Below are positions 3,422 to 34,923 of a stretch of 44,138 bases of DNA, one piece after another; position 1 is the first letter of the stretch; each line of letters starts with the position of its first letter. Source of the DNA: a virus; IMG/VR virus record IMGVR_UViG_3300036785_000416, positions 1 to 44,138 of that record. One strand, 5' to 3'. Position numbers and translations under genes: made by a program. The notes beneath the pieces were generated by a model, which was not told the DNA's origin, ran no database searches, and saw only the letters and a program-made list of their open reading frames with translations.

Positions 3422-4014
3422 GGGACGGTGTACCACTGAGTAGCCGTCACAGCCACCAAAAGAGCGGTCGTATCGGCCGGCACGATGACGGGAGCATTAG
3501 CAGCCAGCGCGTTGATGGCGGCGCCGGAGGCCGGATACAGCGACAAGGCGCTAGTCAAACTGTTGCGGACATAGTAATGCGCGCCGACCGCTGGCACTGG
3601 AAGCGCCACACCACCACTGCCGAGTGTGACTGCGTTGATCACGGCGGTGAGCCCCGTCGCTCCACCCTGAGTGGTCCCGGCAGCTGTAACTGCAGCATTC
3701 ACGGTATCCGCAGTGGGGGCGCTGGTCGGCGGCGCCTGCCAGCTGCCGTCACCCCGCCAGAACGTCGTATTGCTGGCCCCCACCCCACCAGCGAGATTAG
3801 CCGGCGGCACATTGCCGAGCCCGATCGTGCCACTGGCAGTGATCGTGCCACCAGTCAGCGGCGCCGCTGCGGTGATGCTAGTAACGGTGCCACCGCTTGG
3901 CGCTGCGTTCTGCAGCGCGGTGATCTCGTTATGGGCAGCCAGGAAGTTGGCGCGGACCGACGCCGTTGTCGGAGTGCCGGTCACCGGCATAGTCGGGTCT
4001 ATCGCTGAAGCCAT
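3418..4014 (-). CDS. Tail fibre-like protein, 198 aa
   Basis: The protein contains TTFWRGDGSWQAP near residue 85, matching the F(L/W)RGDG(T/S)W element repeated in many phage tail fibres. It is rich in Ala, Thr, Val and Gly and lacks a signal peptide. The N-terminus (SAIDPTMPVTGTPTTASVRA) resembles the start of other appendage proteins that place a short adapter before a beta-structured shaft. Its stop overlaps the start of the exported 342-aa protein. Role as a fibre or appendage protein is inferred from this motif and position. Confidence 0.7.
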   Translation of the reverse strand: MASAIDPTMPVTGTPTTASVRANFLAAHNEITALQNAAPSGGTVTSITAAAPLTGGTITASGTIGLGNVPPANLAGGVGASNTTFWRGDGSWQAPPTSAPTADTVNAAVTAAGTTQGGATGLTAVINAVTLGSGGVALPVPAVGAHYYVRNSLTSALSLYPASGAAINALAANAPVIVPADTTALLVAVTATQWYTVP

Positions 4015-4023
4015 GCGCCCACC

Positions 4024-4206
4024 TCAATCCCAAACCGAAGCGCCGCCGTCCCACACCGAAGCGCCGCCGTCCCAAACGCTGCCCGTGACCGGTGGAGCGA
4101 GCCCCTCTTGCAGATTAGTCCAGGTGCTCAACGGCACGAACACCGGCACCGGCAGCGTCGGTATGTAGTCCCCACTGGTGTCACTACGAGGTTGTTCTCC
4201 ACTCAT
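4024..4206 (-). CDS. Small protein with a C-terminal SVWDGGA tandem repeat, 60 aa
   Basis: ATG 4206 overlaps the stop of the upstream HNH gene as ATGA. The C-terminus is three near copies of a seven-residue unit (SVWDGGA twice, ending SVWD). The rest is proline-rich. The following gene starts 9 bp downstream. Repeats ending in Trp-Asp are unusual; the protein could be a small appendage linker. The family is not recognised. Confidence 0.6.
   Translation of the reverse strand: MSGEQPRSDTSGDYIPTLPVPVFVPLSTWTNLQEGLAPPVTGSVWDGGASVWDGGASVWD
4029..4077. repeat. 21-bp tandem repeat within the 60-aa gene
   Basis: Two 21-bp units (4029-4049 and 4050-4070) differ at one base, and a partial third unit ends near 4077. 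The unit length is a multiple of three, so copy-number change would add or remove one seven-residue block without a frameshift. Confidence 0.85.
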
Positions 4207-20976: not shown

Positions 20977-21207
20977 ACTGCGGCGTGTTGTCGCGGTGAA
21001 CTCGCTTCACAAGGCCAAGGGTGCGGCGTGTTGTCGCACTTAAACGTCAACGCATACTATGTAATGTAACGTTACCAATGTCCATGTAAGAAATCTACCC
21101 CTCTAAAGGGGTGTGACGATTTGTCCAACTTTGCTACCGACATAATTAACTTGCACTATCACCTATTTCTACAAGCAACAATACCGCAACACAATTTTTC
21201 TAACCCA

Positions 21208-21236
21208 TTGATAACACTCACAGTTATTCTGATAGG
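21208..21236 (+). promoter_or_regulatory. Possible rightward early promoter
   Basis: TTGATA at 21208-21213 and GATAGG at 21231-21236 with a 17-bp spacer in the AT-rich part of the control region, about 180 bp before the first rightward gene. The -10 element matches only three of six consensus bases. Confidence 0.35.
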
Positions 21237-21248
21237 TCCTTAGGCCCG

Positions 21249-21334
21249 TAAGTCTATTAGATCCTCTGGCGTGAGAGAGAGAGAGAGAGAGAGATCTTCT
21301 TCCTCACTTAGTAAGTTGGTGTCTAATAGACTTA
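21249..21334. repeat. 13-bp inverted repeat flanking a (GA)11 tract
   Basis: TAAGTCTATTAGA at 21249-21261 is exactly inverted at 21322-21334. The 60-bp loop contains (GA)11 at 21273-21294. The arms are AT-rich. It lies in the leader of the first rightward gene and could be an operator, transcript structure or origin element. Confidence 0.85.
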
Positions 21335-21415
21335 TTGACGTACAACCCAACCCACACTACCTTGCCAACCAGCCCGCGAGCACACCGCAGCGGGCTCTCA
21401 TCGAAGGGAAGCACG

Positions 21416-24841: not shown

Positions 24842-25128
24842 AGCTCTGCAAGGATTGCTGCTGGGCGGCGTACGAACTGATCCCGCTTTCCGACGATCCG
24901 AGATTAGCGCAACTGAGCACGCGCCTATTGCGCGACCCGACCTATCAGCCGCCACGGCACTGGCTATGCAAGCATGTGACCGCCTATATGCCGGGCGAGC
25001 CCGACCTCGTCATCGGCAAGCCCGCCGTGGTGGCCGGCGCGTGGCTCAAGTGCCAGACGGCGCGCATCAGCACCTTTGACGACCATTGCGGCCCCGAGGG
25101 CCAGTATTGGGAAGCAAAGGAAGAGTGA
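24838..25128 (+). CDS. Cys-rich zinc-ribbon-like phage protein, 96 aa
   Basis: ATG 24838 overlaps the previous stop. The protein begins MKLCKDCCWAAYELIPLSDD and has later cysteines in WLCKHV, LKCQTAR and DDHCGPEGQYWEAK. The CxxC start and CGPEG ending are typical of a widespread family of small phage zinc-binding proteins with unknown role. Its position in a replication cluster suggests a nucleic acid-related function. Confidence 0.75.
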   Translation: MKLCKDCCWAAYELIPLSDDPRLAQLSTRLLRDPTYQPPRHWLCKHVTAYMPGEPDLVIGKPAVVAGAWLKCQTARISTFDDHCGPEGQYWEAKEE

Positions 25129-25144
25129 CGACGGCGCTCGCCAC

Positions 25145-25168
25145 CATAGCTAGAAACATGCATGCAGG
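25145..25168 (+). promoter_or_regulatory. AAACATGCATG element, copy 2
   Basis: CATAGCTAGAAACATGCATG plus CAGG, 20/24 identical to 23320-23343. It ends 7 bp before the nuclease gene start, so it overlaps the ribosome-binding region and could be a regulatory site instead of a promoter core. Confidence 0.55.
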
Positions 25169-25175
25169 GACCACA

Positions 25176-26108
25176 ATGGAAACCACCTTCCCCCAAGTCA
25201 TTGACAGCACGATGCGCGGCTCGTTCCTCAAGTGCCCGCACGATTTTTTCCGCGCCCACTGCCAAGGCTTGACCACCCAAGAAGCCCCATCCATAGACCT
25301 CCATTTCGGCGCCTGCGTCGCCAAGGGCTTGGAAGCCTCGCGCCGCTATTACTATGAGCACGGCACGCAGAGCGAAGCCGTCGTCGAGGGCGCCCGTGCG
25401 ATCATCGAGGCCTGGGGCACCTTCACCTTCGAGCCACGCAATCGAAATCAACAAAACAAATCGCTGGAGAACTGCCTGCTGGCGCACCGCGATTACTTCC
25501 GCGAGTGGCCTCTCGACACCGATCACCTCCGCATCCACGTCCACGAGGGCCAGCCCTGCATCGAGTTCGCTGGTGCGGTCGAACTCCCCGACACCCGCCA
25601 CCCTGAAACCGGTGAACCCATCGGCTACGCCGGCCGCTTCGACCTGATCGGTGACTACCGTTCTTCAACCTGGGGCGACGACGACAAGACCACTGGAAGC
25701 AATGTCGCTGGGCGCGACTGGTCCGAACAATGGCGCTTGCGCGGCCAATTCACCGGCTACGTCTACATTGCCCAACACTACGGTATCCCATTACAAGGCT
25801 TCATAGTTCGAGGCATCCAGATCCTGACCGATCAAACCAAGCTCGCCGAGTGCATCGCACCTCGCCCCCGTTGGATGATCCAACGCTGGCTCGACACCCT
25901 CCTCCGCGACCTCCACCGCATGATCCAGTATTGGCACCGCTGGAAGGAAACCGACGCAGACGAGAGCTATCCTCAAGTCCTCGACAGCGGATGCTACAAT
26001 TACAATCGCCCCTGCCAATTCATGCCGCTCTGCACCGCCGAGCACCCCGAGCGTTGGCTCGATACCTACCACGTCAACCGTTGGAACCCCTTAGAGCGCC
26101 CCACGTAG
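25176..26108 (+). CDS. PD-(D/E)XK (Cas4/RecB-like) nuclease
   Basis: 310 residues from ATG 25176. The PD-(D/E)XK core is visible: GYAGRFDLIGDYRSSTWGDD then DKTT, with an Asp in the strand before and a DxK motif, and a later helix with QFTGYVYIAQHYG (Q motif). Three C-terminal cysteines in SGCYNYNRPCQFMPLC, with an earlier Cys in LKCPHDFF, could hold an iron-sulfur cluster as in Cas4/AddB-type nucleases. It probably processes DNA ends in recombination with the neighbouring ATPase and DUF669-like protein. Confidence 0.85.
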   Translation: METTFPQVIDSTMRGSFLKCPHDFFRAHCQGLTTQEAPSIDLHFGACVAKGLEASRRYYYEHGTQSEAVVEGARAIIEAWGTFTFEPRNRNQQNKSLENCLLAHRDYFREWPLDTDHLRIHVHEGQPCIEFAGAVELPDTRHPETGEPIGYAGRFDLIGDYRSSTWGDDDKTTGSNVAGRDWSEQWRLRGQFTGYVYIAQHYGIPLQGFIVRGIQILTDQTKLAECIAPRPRWMIQRWLDTLLRDLHRMIQYWHRWKETDADESYPQVLDSGCYNYNRPCQFMPLCTAEHPERWLDTYHVNRWNPLERPT

Positions 26109-28167: not shown

Positions 28168-29880
28168 GTGACTGGGCAGTGGATCGAAGAAGGAGATCCA
28201 AACTCACCTTTATACATTGTCGGCGAAGCCCCCGGCGAGCGCGAGGTCGCCCAGCGCCGCCCCTTCGTCGGCCCCTCCGGCCAGCTCCTCGACAGCTGCC
28301 TGCGCGAAGCCGGCCTATATCGCCGCGACTGTTTCCTCACCAACATCTGCCATGTGCGGCCCCCCACTTACCGGGACAAACACAACCGGAGAATAGACAA
28401 TGACATCGACCAGTTCTTCGCCACCGCTACTCAAGCAAAGCGAGAGGGTATCCCTCTCCATCTCAGCCGCTATCCCCGTGAACCGATCACGGCCGGCCTC
28501 GCTCGACTACAAACCCTTATCGGACAGCATCGCCCTCGCCTTATCATCGCTATGGGCAACACAGGGCTGTGGGGACTGGTCGGCGAAACTGGTATTACCA
28601 AATGGCGAGGTAGTACGTTTCTCGGGAAAACGGGAACACGAACAATCGCAACCTTTCACCCCGCTGATTGTCTCGCAAACAGAAGCCCCCACCACCGACC
28701 AATACTCGTTCATGACCTCACTCGCGCCCGACGAGAGCTAGACCACCCCAGCGAGCCCCCGCAATGGCGCTTTGTCGTCGCTCCGCTCCGACAAGACGTA
28801 AGAGACTGGCTTGGCGTCTTGGCCGAAGGCCAGCCATTGACTTGCGACATCGAGACCCGCAACGGCCAAGTCGCCTGTCTCGGGCTCGCAAGCTCGCCCG
28901 AGACAGCACTCTGCATCCCCTTCATGAGAGCGCAACCCGGCGACAATGGGCACTCCTACTGGAGCCTAGACGACGAGTGCCACATCGTCGCTTTACTCCA
29001 ACAAATCCTCTCCACACACCCGACCACGTGGCACAATGGCTTATTCGATTGCCAGTACCTCGCCCGCCAATGGGCCTTCGGCCCATGCTACCACGATGAC
29101 ACGATGGTGATGCAGCATGTCGCGTTCCCTGGCCTCCTGGGTGGAAAGATTGACCCAGTCAGCGGGCGCACCGATAAAAGAGGCAGCTCTCTCTCACTTA
29201 GTTTCATCGCCTCTCTCTACTGTCGCCATTACCGTCATTGGAAAGATGACGGACGGCTCTTCGATCCATCTCAACATGATGAGGGACAACTCTGGTCGTA
29301 TAACTGTGAGGACGCTTGTCGTACCCACGAATGCAAGACGGCCCTTCGGGCCGTGCTGGAGCGTGCCGACCTGATCGACCAATATCGCTTCGAGATGTCG
29401 TGCATCCCACTCACGCTCCGAATGATGTGGCGCGGGCTCGCCGTCGCCCACGATGAAATGAAGGCCCAACACGCCGCCATCCTCACCGAGAAGTATGAAA
29501 CCGGCATCTGGCTCGACATCGCCACCGGCTGCGACTTCAACCCCGAAAGCACCCCGCAAATGCGCGCTCTCTTCTACAACGACTTGGCGCTGCCCACCCG
29601 TCTCGACAAGCACACCCGCCAGCCCTCCCTCAAGGACCACGACCTCACCCAGATCACTCGCCAGTGGCCCCTGACCCGCCCACTTATCGAGAAGATCCAG
29701 CTGTTTCGCACCCTCGACACCATCAAGGACAGTGTCGATCCCGCTTGTCTCTCCCCCGATGGCCGCCTGCGCACTGCCCTCAACCCCGCCTATGTCGAGA
29801 CATTCCGCTTCAGCTCGAACGAAACCGCCTTCGGCGAAGGTCACAATTTACAGAATATAGCGCGACCACCGGAGGACTAA
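28168..29880 (+). CDS. UDG/3'-5' exonuclease/polymerase thumb fusion (split DNA polymerase, part 1)
   Basis: 570 residues from GTG 28168 (GGAG 8 nt upstream). Residues ~10-190 are a family-4 uracil-DNA glycosylase domain: GEAPGEREVAQRRPFVGPSG at 19-38 and TFHPA near 162. Residues ~215-400 are a DnaQ-type exonuclease: CDIET (D227, E229), HNGLFD (N290, D294) and YNCED (Y378, D382). Residues ~400-564 match the family-A thumb to the LQNI motif at 561-564. The palm is absent; the ORF stops seven residues later and palm and fingers are encoded separately at 32498-33235. UDG-like domains are known on some phage polymerases. Splitting at this point is unusual. Confidence 0.93.
   Translation: MTGQWIEEGDPNSPLYIVGEAPGEREVAQRRPFVGPSGQLLDSCLREAGLYRRDCFLTNICHVRPPTYRDKHNRRIDNDIDQFFATATQAKREGIPLHLSRYPREPITAGLARLQTLIGQHRPRLIIAMGNTGLWGLVGETGITKWRGSTFLGKTGTRTIATFHPADCLANRSPHHRPILVHDLTRARRELDHPSEPPQWRFVVAPLRQDVRDWLGVLAEGQPLTCDIETRNGQVACLGLASSPETALCIPFMRAQPGDNGHSYWSLDDECHIVALLQQILSTHPTTWHNGLFDCQYLARQWAFGPCYHDDTMVMQHVAFPGLLGGKIDPVSGRTDKRGSSLSLSFIASLYCRHYRHWKDDGRLFDPSQHDEGQLWSYNCEDACRTHECKTALRAVLERADLIDQYRFEMSCIPLTLRMMWRGLAVAHDEMKAQHAAILTEKYETGIWLDIATGCDFNPESTPQMRALFYNDLALPTRLDKHTRQPSLKDHDLTQITRQWPLTRPLIEKIQLFRTLDTIKDSVDPACLSPDGRLRTALNPAYVETFRFSSNETAFGEGHNLQNIARPPED
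28772..28794 (+). repeat. Loop-core hairpin in polymerase coding
   Basis: Six-bp perfect arms TTGTCG and CGACAA with core TCGCTCCGCTC. Confidence 0.7.
29070..29086. repeat. TTC-loop palindrome in polymerase coding
   Basis: ATGGGCC-TTC-GGCCCAT. A second copy type, ACGGCCC-TTC-GGGCCGT, lies at 29338-29354 in the same gene. Confidence 0.65.
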
Positions 29881-30017
29881 TGCGCGGATCAGTTGTAAGA
29901 TGGTCACCGGAAGAATTAAGCGGCTGGGTTACACTCGACGAAAACGGGTGCTGGATATGGCAGGGAAATATATCACCAATCACGCAGAAAGCCGCCAAAC
30001 ATACAGGAGTTGTTCAA
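29881..30017 (+). pseudogene. Truncated HNH endonuclease remnant at the polymerase break
   Basis: ATG 29881 overlaps the polymerase stop as TAATG and has a GGAGG site 4 nt upstream. The first residues (VVRWSPEELSGWVTLDENGC then WIWQGN) match the N-terminal 'GCW(E/I)WQG' region of the intact HNH proteins here. The HNH core and zinc part are missing; after about residue 28 the sequence diverges and runs into the following gene. It looks like the remnant of a homing element inserted in the polymerase gene. Confidence 0.7.
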
Positions 30018-30290: not shown

Positions 30291-30469
30291 GACACCTCAC
30301 ACCGAAACACAAGGAAGCATGGCTCAGGGGCTACCAAGACGGTCTAAAGCCTAGACTTGAAGAGCCTCGCAAAGTAATTCCACCCACCGATCTCACCAGC
30401 GACGAAGCATGGGACTACACTTCAGGCTTCATCGCTGGGGACCGCCTAGCCCCCAAAAAGGCTCCCTAG
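30287..30469 (+). CDS. Unknown small protein, 60 aa
   Basis: ATGA overlap with the previous gene. Contains KHKEAWLRGYQDGLKPR and SDEAWDYTSGFIAGDRLA, two similar 'W..GY..G' segments. Function unknown. The exonuclease gene starts 2 bp after it. Confidence 0.65.
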   Translation: MRHLTPKHKEAWLRGYQDGLKPRLEEPRKVIPPTDLTSDEAWDYTSGFIAGDRLAPKKAP

Positions 30470-30471
30470 AC

Positions 30472-31095
30472 ATGCTCCTCTTCGTCGATTGTGAAACCAC
30501 CGGCATCCCCAACTTCAACCGCCCTTGGGACTGGTCCGAGCAACCTCGCCTCGTCCAGCTAGCCGCTTTGCTGGTCGCTTCGCTCCCAGCAAAGGACGGC
30601 GAGTACCAGCAGATCCGCGAACTCAACTACATCATCCGCCCCGCCGGCTGGACTATTCCCCCCAAGGTTGCCGCCATCCACGGCGTCACCACAGAGCGGG
30701 CCCTCGCCTTCGGCGTCCCACTCGATCACGCCATGTCCAAGTTTCAAGGCATGCTCGTCGATGCCGACGAACTCGGCGTCGGAGGCAAGATCATCGCCCA
30801 CAACCTCCAATTCGACACTCACATCCTACTCGCTGAACTTAACCATTGCGGCATGCCACTGGCCCCCTTCGGATTGCTCCGTCCTTTCTGCACCATGCGC
30901 ACCCTCACCAACAGGATGAGACTGCCCGGCGGACCACGAGGCGAATACAAATGGCCCACCCTCGACGAAGCTTGGAGGTTCATACACCCCGATCGGCCTC
31001 CGGCCGATCCTGCAGCACGCCATACCGCAATGGGCGACGTCGTCATGTGCCGCGACGTCTACCTCAGCGGCCTCGAACGCGGCTGGTGGCCATGA
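30472..31095 (+). CDS. DnaQ-like 3'-5' exonuclease
   Basis: 207 residues with LLFVDCETTGIPNF as Exo I (D6, E8), IIAHNLQFDTHILLAEL as Exo II and RHTAMGDVVMCRDVY as the Exo IIIepsilon HxxxxD. This is the DEDDh proofreading exonuclease family (DNA polymerase III epsilon-like). The polymerase fragment at 28168 has its own exonuclease domain, so this protein likely works separately, for example in DNA repair, degradation or RNA processing. A 9-bp-arm hairpin (30566-30594) lies within the gene. Confidence 0.9.
   Translation: MLLFVDCETTGIPNFNRPWDWSEQPRLVQLAALLVASLPAKDGEYQQIRELNYIIRPAGWTIPPKVAAIHGVTTERALAFGVPLDHAMSKFQGMLVDADELGVGGKIIAHNLQFDTHILLAELNHCGMPLAPFGLLRPFCTMRTLTNRMRLPGGPRGEYKWPTLDEAWRFIHPDRPPADPAARHTAMGDVVMCRDVYLSGLERGWWP
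30566..30594 (+). repeat. Loop-core hairpin with 9-bp arms, in exonuclease coding
   Basis: CTTTGCTGG and CCAGCAAAG flank TCGCTTCGCTC. It is the longest perfect arm pair in the family and lies wholly in codons. Confidence 0.8.
30991..31009. repeat. TCC-loop palindrome in exonuclease coding
   Basis: GATCGGCC-TCC-GGCCGATC, the same arms as the element at 27895-27913 with one loop change. Confidence 0.7.
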
Positions 31096-31154: not shown

Positions 31155-31394
31155 ATGGCCATCGAACGGTGGACACCCCGGCGCAAAGTAGCACTCCTCA
31201 ACGACCTCGCCACCGGCCGCACCACCCAGGAAGCTGTCCTTCGCCTGTACAACGTATCCCCCGACGAAATCGCCGAGTGGATACGCGCCTACCACCATGA
31301 CGGCCTGCCCGGCCTTCGCACCACTCGCACCCAGGAGCGCCGCCCCCGCCACTTCCTCCGATCGCCTCGCTCCGCTCGCCGATCACCCACATAG
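31155..31394 (+). CDS. SciP/DUF1153-like transcription regulator
   Basis: 79 residues from ATG 31155, with AAGGA about 7 nt upstream. RWTPRRKVALLNDLATGRTT through LYNVSPDEIAEWIRAYHHDG and GLRTTRTQERR follow the helix-turn-helix pattern of alphaproteobacterial SciP (DUF1153), including the terminal GL-x-LRTTR signature. In Caulobacter, SciP restrains activation by the cell-cycle regulator CtrA. A phage copy could modify host cell-cycle transcription or control phage genes. The C-terminal ~20 residues are encoded partly by a loop-core hairpin and are not conserved family sequence. Confidence 0.8.
   Translation: MAIERWTPRRKVALLNDLATGRTTQEAVLRLYNVSPDEIAEWIRAYHHDGLPGLRTTRTQERRPRHFLRSPRSARRSPT
31360..31384. 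repeat. Loop-core hairpin at the end of the SciP-like gene
   Basis: Core TCGCTCCGCTC at 31367-31377; outer GATCG and CGATC arms pair, with mismatches next to the core. Confidence 0.55.
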
Positions 31395-31395
31395 C

Positions 31396-31426
31396 TTCCA
31401 CAGAACATCCACAGACTTGTCCACAG
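31396..31426. other. Three TCCACAG boxes (DnaA-box-like)
   Basis: TTCCACAG (31396), ATCCACAG (31407) and GTCCACAG (31419) are 11 and 12 bp apart, about one helical turn. TTGTCCACA at 31417-31425 equals a DnaA box form known from some high-GC bacteria. Such spacing suggests cooperative protein binding. Confidence 0.55.
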
Positions 31427-31432
31427 CCCATA

Positions 31433-31475
31433 GAACGTTTCAGGCACATCCAATGAACGTTCCGCTATATCCAAT
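31433..31475. repeat. Two iteron-like repeats
   Basis: GAACGTT-(8)-ATCCAAT at 31433-31454 and GAACGTT-(7)-ATCCAAT at 31455-31475 are adjacent direct repeats of 22 and 21 bp with conserved ends. Confidence 0.7.
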
Positions 31476-31827
31476 GATGACGAGCGGTTGTGTCACAGAG
31501 AATGTTTCGGGATCTTGCAGCATAATCCATGCACTGGCGTCACTCGGGGCGTCGCCCGCAATGCCGGTCCCATCGGCAAGCCCCCGCAACCCCTCAGGGC
31601 TACCCAACGGCCAATTATGCAGCTTGTGCGCACATCCTCACCACCTCGAGCTGCACCCGGACATCTGCCAAATGCCGGCCGTAAAAACGTCTCCAACCTT
31701 TTTCACCTTCGGGAGGAAAAAGGAGCCTCTCCAGTGCGCGGAGAGGCTACTACGGAGAATGTCCACCTGCCAAAGCCAGAGACGTTTTTACGGCCGGCAT
31801 TTGGCAGATCACGAGGAGCAACCATGA
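31453..31827 (+). CDS. Doubtful ORF across the structured locus, 124 aa
   Basis: From ATG 31453 the frame ends ATGA over the next gene, and has a Cys/His cluster (CSLCAHPHHLELHPDIC). However, it covers the iterons and both arms of the 31-bp inverted repeat, is low in recognisable structure, and two other frames are also open. It may be a true zinc-binding small protein or only an open frame in GC-rich non-coding DNA. Confidence 0.25.
   Translation: MNVPLYPMMTSGCVTENVSGSCSIIHALASLGASPAMPVPSASPRNPSGLPNGQLCSLCAHPHHLELHPDICQMPAVKTSPTFFTFGRKKEPLQCAERLLRRMSTCQSQRRFYGRHLADHEEQP
31663..31809. repeat. 31-bp inverted repeat with nested hairpins
   Basis: 31663-31693 is the exact reverse complement of 31779-31809. 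Inside are an AGCCTCTCC/GGAGAGGCT hairpin (9-bp stem, 31724-31748) and an imperfect CCTTTTTC/GAAAAAGG hairpin with a CTTCGG-type tip (about 31697-31722). The folded form would be a long stem with two side hairpins. It may be an origin structure, a small non-coding RNA or a miniature element. It ends 14 bp before the next start codon. Confidence 0.9.
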
Positions 31828-32102
31828 CCTACTTCGCCGTCCAAGTCCACTACCTCAACGGTCTCAAGGACAGGTTGGCCTGGGAGGACGTCTTGACCAG
31901 CACCAACAGCGATTTGGCAGCAAACTATGCCAAGCGACACAACGGTGAAGGGCTTGGAGTTCTACGAGTAGTACGCCTAGAAGGCAAATGGCCTCACGCC
32001 AACCACCCCAATAACCCCGCATCCTGCGTACACTTCATCCACGAGGTCGAGGCATCCGCCTGGGCCAAACGGCTAGAAAACCAGAGGTTCATATACCCAT
32101 GA
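31824..32102 (+). CDS. Unknown protein, 92 aa
   Basis: ATG 31824 with GAGGAG about 6 nt upstream. Beta-rich start (MTYFAVQVHYLNGLKDRLAW), then mixed, ending in a Trp-containing helix. The stop overlaps the next start as ATGA. No family recognised. Confidence 0.65.
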   Translation: MTYFAVQVHYLNGLKDRLAWEDVLTSTNSDLAANYAKRHNGEGLGVLRVVRLEGKWPHANHPNNPASCVHFIHEVEASAWAKRLENQRFIYP

Positions 32103-32309: not shown

Positions 32310-32501
32310 ATGACCGAGTTGACTGCTGATCGCTTCATCGTATCCAGCAAGGAACTTGCCGAGTTATGGCAAGTCTACGGCATCGACGAAAGAGACGCGG
32401 GCAAAGACATAACCCTCCACGAATTCGACTTCATCCGACTGATGGTATCCCTCTATATAGCGAGAGGCATGGTACCACCACCAATCACATGGGCGCGATG
32501 A
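32310..32501 (+). CDS. Unknown protein, 63 aa
   Basis: Helical protein (DRFIVSSKELAELWQVYGID) with an acidic middle and a Pro-rich end. Its stop overlaps the palm gene start as ATGA, so the polymerase part 2 is likely coupled to it. It might help the two polymerase parts associate, but there is no direct evidence. Confidence 0.6.
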   Translation: MTELTADRFIVSSKELAELWQVYGIDERDAGKDITLHEFDFIRLMVSLYIARGMVPPPITWAR

Positions 32502-33235
32502 CCTTACCCAACATCCGCCGGACCATCGTCCCCGATCCGGGGATGGTACTGGTCGAGATCGACCTGAAGCAAGCCGACGCCCAGATCGTCGCATGGGCGA
32601 GCAACGATGAACCGCTCAAGTCGCTGTTTCGCCAGGGGGTTGATATATACACTGAACGACAAACCGGCATCTGGAGTGATCCAAGCCTGCCTTCATCTAG
32701 ACAGATCCGAAAGAACTGCATTCACTCCGTCAATTACGGAGCAGCATATCGTACTCTGGCCGAACGGTACGTGGGTACTGAAGCGGCCGCTCGCCACTTC
32801 ATCGACACTTGGTTCTCCCACCACCTCGCCATTCGCGAGTGGCAGCGCCGGATCGAGTGGGAAATGACCCAATCCCGTACCCCTTCGATCCGAAACATCT
32901 ACGGCTATCGCCGCCTATACGCCTGCCCCACCCCATTGACCCAGCCACTAGCGTGGTTGGGTCAATCTACCGTCGCCAGGGTGAACAAAGAAATGCTCTT
33001 AGCTCTCGCTACGCTCGAACCAACAGTTCAAATTCTCATGCCGCACCACGACAGCGTCCTTCTACAAGTCCCTGTCGGGCTTACGCCCGACATCTTTCCC
33101 AAGTTGCTTGAACTCTGTGCCATCACTGTCCCCTACAAGGATGATCCCCTTGTCATCCCATGTGACCTCAAATACAGCGACCAATCCTGGGGCGACATGC
33201 TAAGCTGGTCGCCGGAGGCGACCAATGCTGATTGA
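32498..33235 (+). CDS. DNA polymerase A palm and fingers (split polymerase, part 2)
   Basis: 245 residues from ATG 32498 (ATGA overlap). It begins LPNIRRTIVPDPGMVLVEID, the sequence that follows the LQNI motif in intact phage polymerases. Motif A has D22 and D27 (EIDLKQADAQIVAW), motif B has RQIRKNCIHSVNYGAAY (K72, Y80, G81) and motif C is PHHDSVLLQVP. All catalytic residues are present, so the enzyme may be active if the parts assemble. The 3' end overlaps the next gene by 11 bp. It lies 2.6 kb from part 1. Confidence 0.93.
   Translation: MTLPNIRRTIVPDPGMVLVEIDLKQADAQIVAWASNDEPLKSLFRQGVDIYTERQTGIWSDPSLPSSRQIRKNCIHSVNYGAAYRTLAERYVGTEAAARHFIDTWFSHHLAIREWQRRIEWEMTQSRTPSIRNIYGYRRLYACPTPLTQPLAWLGQSTVARVNKEMLLALATLEPTVQILMPHHDSVLLQVPVGLTPDIFPKLLELCAITVPYKDDPLVIPCDLKYSDQSWGDMLSWSPEATNAD
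33073..33092. repeat. GGGC-TTAC-GCCC palindrome in palm gene
   Basis: TGTCGGGC-TTAC-GCCCGACA with perfect 8-bp arms near motif C. Confidence 0.65.
33206..33224. repeat. GGA-loop palindrome ending at a start codon
   Basis: TGGTCGCC-GGA-GGCGACCA; the right arm ends one base before ATG 33225, so the start of the next gene is adjacent to a stem. Confidence 0.65.
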
Positions 33236-33597: not shown

Positions 33598-34923
33598 ATG
33601 GTTCTCACCCTCGTTTCGGATCGCTCCGCCCGACGAAGGGAACATGACGACTGGATCACCTCCTACCTCGCCGCAGTCGTCCCGAAGAGCGAGGCCCCCG
33701 AACGCTTCCACTTCTGGATTGGGGCAAGCATCATAGCAGGAGCTTTACGCCGCCGTGTAAGTATCAATATGGAGGCGTTCTCCTGGTTCCCCAATATGTT
33801 CATCGTCCTCGTCGGTCCCCCTGGCACCGTCAAGAAATCGACTAGCATCAACGTCGGTGCCCGTCTTTTACGCGATGTGCCCAATATTCATTTTGGCAGT
33901 GACATCACTACTTGGGAAGGCTTCATTCAGCAAGTCGAGAACGCCGAGGACATATTTGCTGAAGGCGACCCCCAGCCACGCCTAGACTTCAACGAAGAGT
34001 ACAAAGTCACTTCAGCACTAACATGTATCGTTAGTGAATGGGGAACGTTTCTTGATCCCGATAACTACAACATGATCAACATGTTGACTGAACTATACGA
34101 CGGCAAGTCCGATATCCCACTACGAAAGACAACCAAGACGCATGGCGACAACATAATAGTCAATCCATTCTTGAATATGATAGCCGGTACGACACCCTCC
34201 TGGATGGCTGACAATTTCAAGGGCCGTTTCGGCGGTTGGGGTTTCTCTTCCAGATGCATCTTCCTGCACGCCTCACAGCCGGAACGTCTAATACCCTATC
34301 CAGACGAAGAGTGGCAAGGCACCTTCCAGTCCCAGATGCAGAGTTTCACAAAGGATCTCATCGAGATCAGCAGGATGAAAGGTCAATACGTCCTCGACCC
34401 CGCCGCGCGCAACTACGGTCGCGATTGGTACCGACAACATATGGAGCGCAAAGTCCGTCTCGATGAACACCCCGATCACAATCCTTGGCTCAGCTACTAT
34501 CTCGCTCGCAAGTTCGATCACGCCCACAAGCTAGCTATGGTCATCGCGGCCAGCCAAGGCTCCCAGCTCCTCATCACTTACGACCACCTCAAGACAGCTT
34601 GCGACCGCTGCGACGAAGTGGAGGTCGAACTCTCCAAGGTCTTTGGCAGCAACGTCCAGGACACTTCTAGAGCTGTCCGCCTCAATCAATCACTCTGGGT
34701 CGAACTAGAGAATATGATCACTAAGAATGGTGGCGGATTTGAGGAACGCGGCATCTACGCATGGACTTTGCGCCGTTTAACCTATGGAGAAAGCAAAGCC
34801 TTCATCGAGCATCTTATAGCAGGCAATTGGCTCAAAAAGGAAGTCAATAACGATGGAACATGGCTTGTATTCGGATCAGCGTACAAGAATGCTACCGAAC
34901 CGACGCGCAGCTCACCGGATTGA
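33598..34923 (+). CDS. DUF3987-like helicase/primase ATPase
   Basis: 441 residues. A Walker A GPPGTVKKST at 73-82, CIVSEWGTFLD as Walker B-like with acidic E, and MIAGTTPSWMADNFKGRFGG with a sensor/arginine finger region and SSRCIFLHASQPERL match DUF3987-type phage and plasmid replication ATPases. A C-terminal winged-helix-like region ends near WLVFGSAYKN. It probably unwinds DNA for the polymerase. Codon use is somewhat lower GC than its neighbours. No TOPRIM primase domain was seen. Confidence 0.8.
   Translation: MVLTLVSDRSARRREHDDWITSYLAAVVPKSEAPERFHFWIGASIIAGALRRRVSINMEAFSWFPNMFIVLVGPPGTVKKSTSINVGARLLRDVPNIHFGSDITTWEGFIQQVENAEDIFAEGDPQPRLDFNEEYKVTSALTCIVSEWGTFLDPDNYNMINMLTELYDGKSDIPLRKTTKTHGDNIIVNPFLNMIAGTTPSWMADNFKGRFGGWGFSSRCIFLHASQPERLIPYPDEEWQGTFQSQMQSFTKDLIEISRMKGQYVLDPAARNYGRDWYRQHMERKVRLDEHPDHNPWLSYYLARKFDHAHKLAMVIAASQGSQLLITYDHLKTACDRCDEVEVELSKVFGSNVQDTSRAVRLNQSLWVELENMITKNGGGFEERGIYAWTLRRLTYGESKAFIEHLIAGNWLKKEVNNDGTWLVFGSAYKNATEPTRSSPD

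Follow-up and report, generated by a model that had tools for sequence, protein, structure and literature searches.

Between the two parts of its DNA polymerase, the phage studied here carries a short stretch crowded with repeated sequences, and the question is what this stretch does. There are two parts to the question: (i) whether the stretch encodes a protein; and (ii) if not, whether it is an origin of replication, a structured RNA or a miniature mobile element, as the initial annotation had variously proposed. No published description of the locus was found in a literature search, and the region has no DNA similarity to phage and plasmid collections. The reading that we favour, with a probability of roughly 40%, is that the stretch contains two neighbouring devices, namely a DnaA-type array that may serve as an origin and a hairpin with a role in RNA processing or as a leader element.

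Genomic setting

The window, by which we mean the whole stretch of DNA analysed, is a complete virus record of 44,138 bases. Its first 127 bases are identical to its last 127, and it is therefore probably a complete circular assembly. Replication genes lie on the + strand from ~21 to 35 kb and include those for an exonuclease-like protein (25086-26108), the N-part of a family A DNA polymerase (28168-29880), a polymerase-exonuclease-subunit-like protein (30409-31095), the polymerase C-part (about 32489-33235) and a DUF3987 primase-like protein (33598-34923). The stretch under study had been correctly placed between the two polymerase parts, and the genes flanking it all run in the same (+) direction. 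The most AT-rich spot of the genome is at 21029-21335 (34% GC at 21135), ahead of + strand genes; it includes a 13-bp inverted repeat (21249-21261/21322-21334) and is a candidate alternative origin or promoter.

Protein relatives, among them Microcystis phage Mel-JY34 and Vibrio phage VS-ABTNL-3, show about 25-37% identity. Closer relatives are IMG/VR contigs, at about 32-53% protein identity, varying by protein; they were found with alignments as queries, single-protein searches having yielded nothing usable.

The polymerase N-part combines a uracil-DNA glycosylase-like domain with the start of the family A polymerase domain, and the gene is broken within the loop that separates NLQNI from motif A. 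Each half has a stop or start codon of its own, the N-part ending in NLQNIARPPED and a stop, and the C-part beginning with MGAMTLPNIRR. In the nearest relative (G002) the polymerase is also split, with an N-part that ends in NMQNIKRPDDE and a stop, and in a Vibrio phage it consists of two parts with one ORF in between. Split family A polymerases are likewise reported for the OM43 phages MEP401/402 (PMC10580990). A group I or group II intron as the cause of the split was rejected, because the window has no Rfam match and the halves have their own stop and start codons. Directly after the N-part, at 29880-30000, is a frame with ...VTLDENGCWIWQG..., which we take to resemble the start of HNH endonucleases; no family match was found for it.

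The HTH gene, the gap and their absence from relatives

A gene for a 79-aa SciP/DUF1153-like HTH protein (31155-31394, +; Pfam PF06627, E 1.9e-12) immediately precedes the stretch. The match of this protein to the NCBIfam SciP model (E 1.8e-12, 47.3 bits) is under the cut-off of 100, and there are also weak transposase-like matches. SciP usually functions in the alphaproteobacterial cell cycle. A stretch similar to the HTH gene occurs in only one phage record, that of Erythrobacter phage XM05, which hints at an alphaproteobacterial host for the present phage. TTAA-N7-TTAA sites, which are of the CtrA type, do not occur in the window. For alphaproteobacterial phages, one study (PMC9437464) reports that neither DnaA nor SciP sites are asymmetric in their positions.

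From the stop codon of the HTH gene, a gap of about 430 bp extends to the ATG (31824) of a 92-aa ORF (31824-32102, +), for which no relative was found and whose Shine-Dalgarno sequence abuts the hairpin described below. Open frames exist in the region (31297-31827, 31488-32102 and a 124-aa frame at 31453-31827), and those of the gap match no protein family. Codon usage in frame 31453-31827 scores -0.086 per codon versus 0.028 to 0.255 for the training genes, in a test that is weak, the neighbouring HTH gene likewise scoring -0.086. The 124-aa frame overlaps the next start by ATGA, an overlap that is frequent among real phage genes. With codon scores below those of the training genes and no family match, the gap apparently carries no gene, in line with the earlier judgement that it holds no convincing one.

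The whole block of 1.4 kb that includes the stretch is missing from all three related loci that span the exonuclease to the polymerase C-half (L008, L009 and L092), where the corresponding space is either no gap or a short unrelated ORF. Locus L091 ends about 120 bases past the exonuclease match and has no similarity to the region. The HTH family is missing from 15 of 15 related records searched, fragments included, and the 92-aa protein was not found in six of six, in a search without a positive control. These absences suggest that a single lineage-specific block comprises the HTH gene, the boxes, the repeats, the hairpin and the small ORFs. The missing 1.4 kb indicates that, as far as the compared sequences go, the stretch is lineage-specific and not a conserved family origin; it may be a control region that was acquired, along with the SciP-like HTH gene and the small ORFs, at a position between the exonuclease and polymerase C-half genes. 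The initial annotation had named absence of the repeats from close relatives as a reason to give up its reading. They are indeed absent from the nearest relatives found, but with protein identities of only about 32-53% this is not decisive.

The TCCACAG array

Three DnaA-type boxes, GCTTCCACAG, ACATCCACAG and TTGTCCACAG, occupy 31397-31426 on the + strand. As had been noted, their TCCACAG motifs lie about one helical turn apart, with starts at 31397, 31408 and 31420 and hence spacings of 11 and 12 bp. When the region was shuffled with its dinucleotides preserved, any 7-mer present three times within 40 bp arose in 2 of 2000 shuffles, and the whole window has two places with such triples, including TCCACAG, versus a mean of 0.17 after shuffling. 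The DnaA-box consensus is TTATCCACA in E. coli and TTGTCCACA in actinobacteria. The boxes of the window fit the DnaA type in core and phasing, and the consensus 5′ half is present in only one of the three; the single TT[ATG]TCCACA in this genome is close to chance expectation. Adjoining the boxes is an AT-rich stretch (31430-31529, 45% GC), a candidate unwinding region. Only 0.96% of 100-bp windows are lower in GC, several other places in the genome being as low or lower.

A search of viral contigs for TCCACA triples (gaps of 4-6) returned at least 120 stretches. Among the 124 triples listed, 60 have three boxes of the form TT[ATG]TCCACA, 29 have two, 13 have one and 22 have none, i.e., two or three in 89 of 124. 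Spacings are exclusively 11 and 12 in 115 of the 124, though 10 was permitted, and 69 triples lie outside any stop-free frame of 300 nt. These counts suggest that most viral-contig triples of TCCACA with 11/12-bp spacing are arrays of DnaA boxes; the window triple belongs with those having one consensus 5′ half. The proteins beside arrays elsewhere (83, among the matches listed) include 16 of terminase phrog_2, nine RecE-like exonucleases and four of the DNA primase family; the terminase neighbours imply that DnaA-type arrays are not confined to replication genes.

Among 50 related records, two have a TCCACA pair (gap 3-7) and 48 do not. One of the two (G031, locus L108) has three perfect TTATCCACA boxes at 12 bp and a fourth that is inverted. 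These four boxes, with direct repeats close by (225-275 and about 570-650 of the locus), belong to some 780 bp that are rich in repeats and precede an ORF; open frames cross these 780 bp as well.

The window array thus resembles known DnaA-box arrays in its TCCACA core, its three boxes on one strand, its 11/12-bp spacing and its AT-rich neighbour. It differs from them in the non-consensus 5′ half of two boxes, in its location inside the polymerase operon, in its absence from the nearest relatives and in the lack of a GC-skew switch: cumulative GC skew, which the initial annotation had proposed as a check, falls steadily across the window with no switch at the stretch. Many phages have no such switch. 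An origin reading has moderate support from the box core, spacing and AT-rich 100 bp, while the skew, the poor 5′ halves and the nearest relatives tell against it. The device at 31397-31529, helically phased boxes beside an AT-rich stretch, is probably bound by host DnaA, and its likeliest use would be to load the replication machinery at a phage origin.

The inverted repeat and its predicted hairpin

The second part of the stretch is, as the initial annotation had it, a perfect inverted repeat of 31 bp, on the + strand, with arms at 31663-31693 and 31779-31809, the latter 14 nt ahead of an ATG. All 31 pairs are Watson-Crick with no G-U, and 85 nt lie between the arms, giving a unit of 147 bp. 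The two inner hairpins described for the loop (31694-31778) were recovered in predicted folds, one with a UUCG loop and one of 9 bp. RNA fold z-scores are -11.5 for the + strand and -9.7 for the - strand, and none of 200 shuffles was equally stable on either strand. For perfect repeats with spacers of 40-150, the maximum was 16 bp across 1.28 Mb of related DNA (103 loci), 14 bp across 0.23 Mb of unrelated bacterial DNA (30 loci) and 26 bp across 1.11 Mb of unrelated viral DNA (119 loci); none longer than that of the window occurred at such spacing in 2.6 Mb of comparison DNA.

Because the flanking genes are co-directional, the operon RNA would contain the hairpin. In the folding model, the Shine-Dalgarno bases at 31812-31816 have unpaired probabilities of 0.01-0.12 with the hairpin versus 0.13-0.59 for the 3′ part alone, and the hairpin and flanking bases are thus predicted to help hide the Shine-Dalgarno sequence of the 92-aa ORF. 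An extra copy of CTGCCAAA at 31767, adjoining the right arm, is a possible alternative partner of that arm. No Rfam 15 model matched the window at its gathering score, and the region gave no match even with E values up to 5. Nor was any homologue of the element found. The structured-RNA proposal is supported by the predicted folding and by the place within a co-directional operon, and not by any Rfam match; that the hairpin is as stable on the other strand counts against an RNA role.

In phages T7 and lambda, RNase III processing hairpins lie between genes. The window element is like these in its long duplex, its intercistronic gap and its location just ahead of an ORF in a co-directional operon, and the 31-bp predicted stem falls between same-strand genes that would be co-transcribed, as expected of an RNase III-type element. 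Unlike the T7 and lambda hairpins, the window duplex, which is a predicted fold, is longer and perfectly paired and has two extra hairpins in its loop. From its position and predicted fold, the best reading of the inverted repeat is a hairpin that acts in RNA processing or as a leader. Transcribed within the rightward replication operon, the element (31663-31809) would form a 31-bp duplex that bears the two inner hairpins and, together with neighbouring bases, contributes to hiding the Shine-Dalgarno sequence of the next ORF; RNase III cleavage of the duplex would then part the message upstream from that downstream and expose the Shine-Dalgarno sequence.

Other fold-back elements were seen in the comparison sets. 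A candidate non-coding RNA lies ahead of the polymerase N-half in related loci L046 (2046-2219) and L065 (1946-2119), and also L033 (about 2495-2755) and L004 (about 3835-4060). It has a long stem, inner hairpins, the motif GCAGTTGCC and a terminator-like end, and no Rfam match; all five base pairs of the consensus fold that differ between L046 and L065 remain paired, with both sides changed in one of them. Like the window element, it is a long stem closing inner hairpins in a replication module; unlike it, it is upstream of the N-half and has GCAGTTGCC and a terminator, and there is no sequence similarity between the two. A long-stem element that relatives seemed to share upstream of the polymerase N-half was dropped as support, since such repeats number 9 in 1.28 Mb of related versus 13 in 1.11 Mb of unrelated viral DNA. 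Against Markov controls the relatives gave six repeats with arms of 14 or more versus 0-1, and a looser scan was near its controls. Also set aside were several structured spots upstream of the polymerase in relatives, which have the look of ordinary terminators or coding DNA. In a more distant group, L101 and L102 (4512-4637), L103 (4510-4634) and L099 (4530-4650) have a stem-closed element with a terminal T run that directly precedes an ORF; its flanks are similar, and the stem sequence differs between L101 and L103. Among viral contigs not chosen for kinship, L215 (8314-8491) and L184 (1197-1310) have long fold-backs with inner hairpins and perfect arms of 26 and 19 bp.

Alternative explanations

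One alternative, which we consider unlikely, is that the whole 430 bp is a single origin, in which initiator loading falls to the boxes and direct repeats, and the inverted repeat acts at the DNA level, with single strands extruding it as a hairpin on which the phage primase-like protein starts priming. Boxes, direct repeats, AT-rich stretch and hairpin do lie together among replication genes, G031 pairs a DnaA array with direct repeats, and the fold is stable on both strands. However, the GC skew has no switch, relatives with the same replication genes lack the stretch, and the spot at 21.0-21.3 kb is more AT-rich. The direct repeats are also just two and modest. The iteron-like pair that had been described is present at a spacing of 21, but as repeats of 18 bp (31439-31456 and 31460-31477, +) that are 78% identical and share an exact ATCCAATGA; a pair equally alike arose in 4 of 300 shuffles, and an exact 9-mer pair in 65 of 2000.

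Of similarly low probability is an accident without function, in which newly acquired DNA that is non-coding or decaying recently gained the perfect repeat through a strand-switch error in copying. The perfect arms, the absence of the repeat from relatives and the CTGCCAAA beside the right arm, which is also present at 31665 at the beginning of the left arm, would fit such an event. The absence of G-U pairs suits a DNA-level or a recent origin too, a point against the RNA reading. Two further independent hairpins in the loop, the very low fold energy and the position at a start codon argue against an accident.

Less probable still is the mobile element of the initial annotation, a miniature inverted-repeat transposable element of 147 bp, bounded by terminal repeats of 31 bp and mobilised by a host transposase: its size, its perfect ends without a coding gene in between and the weak transposase-like matches of the nearby HTH gene are suggestive, but no paired copy occurs in 84,980 species genomes, which may not include the host, or in 2.9 million viral contigs, an exact arm search of the viral contigs found none, the single-arm matches (30 genome and at least 119 viral) have no inverted partner better than 18/31 among the matches listed, the element is single-copy in this genome, and no target-site duplication is visible by eye in the flanks.

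Implications

The two-device reading could be extended to a new kind of phage riboregulator, a long-duplex, multi-hairpin RNA between polymerase halves that would balance expression of the N-half and C-half, either by being cleaved by RNase III or by hiding a Shine-Dalgarno sequence, with an adjacent DnaA-binding array and SciP-like gene tying phage replication to the host cell cycle. We regard this extension as speculative, and as improbable in its full form. If the array binds host DnaA, initiation would still be tied to host DnaA in a phage that encodes a polymerase and a primase-like protein of its own, and the adjacent SciP-like HTH gene would hint at an alphaproteobacterial cell-cycle link. 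Should the hairpin prove to be an RNA switch, it would illustrate how the parts of a split polymerase come to be expressed in step.
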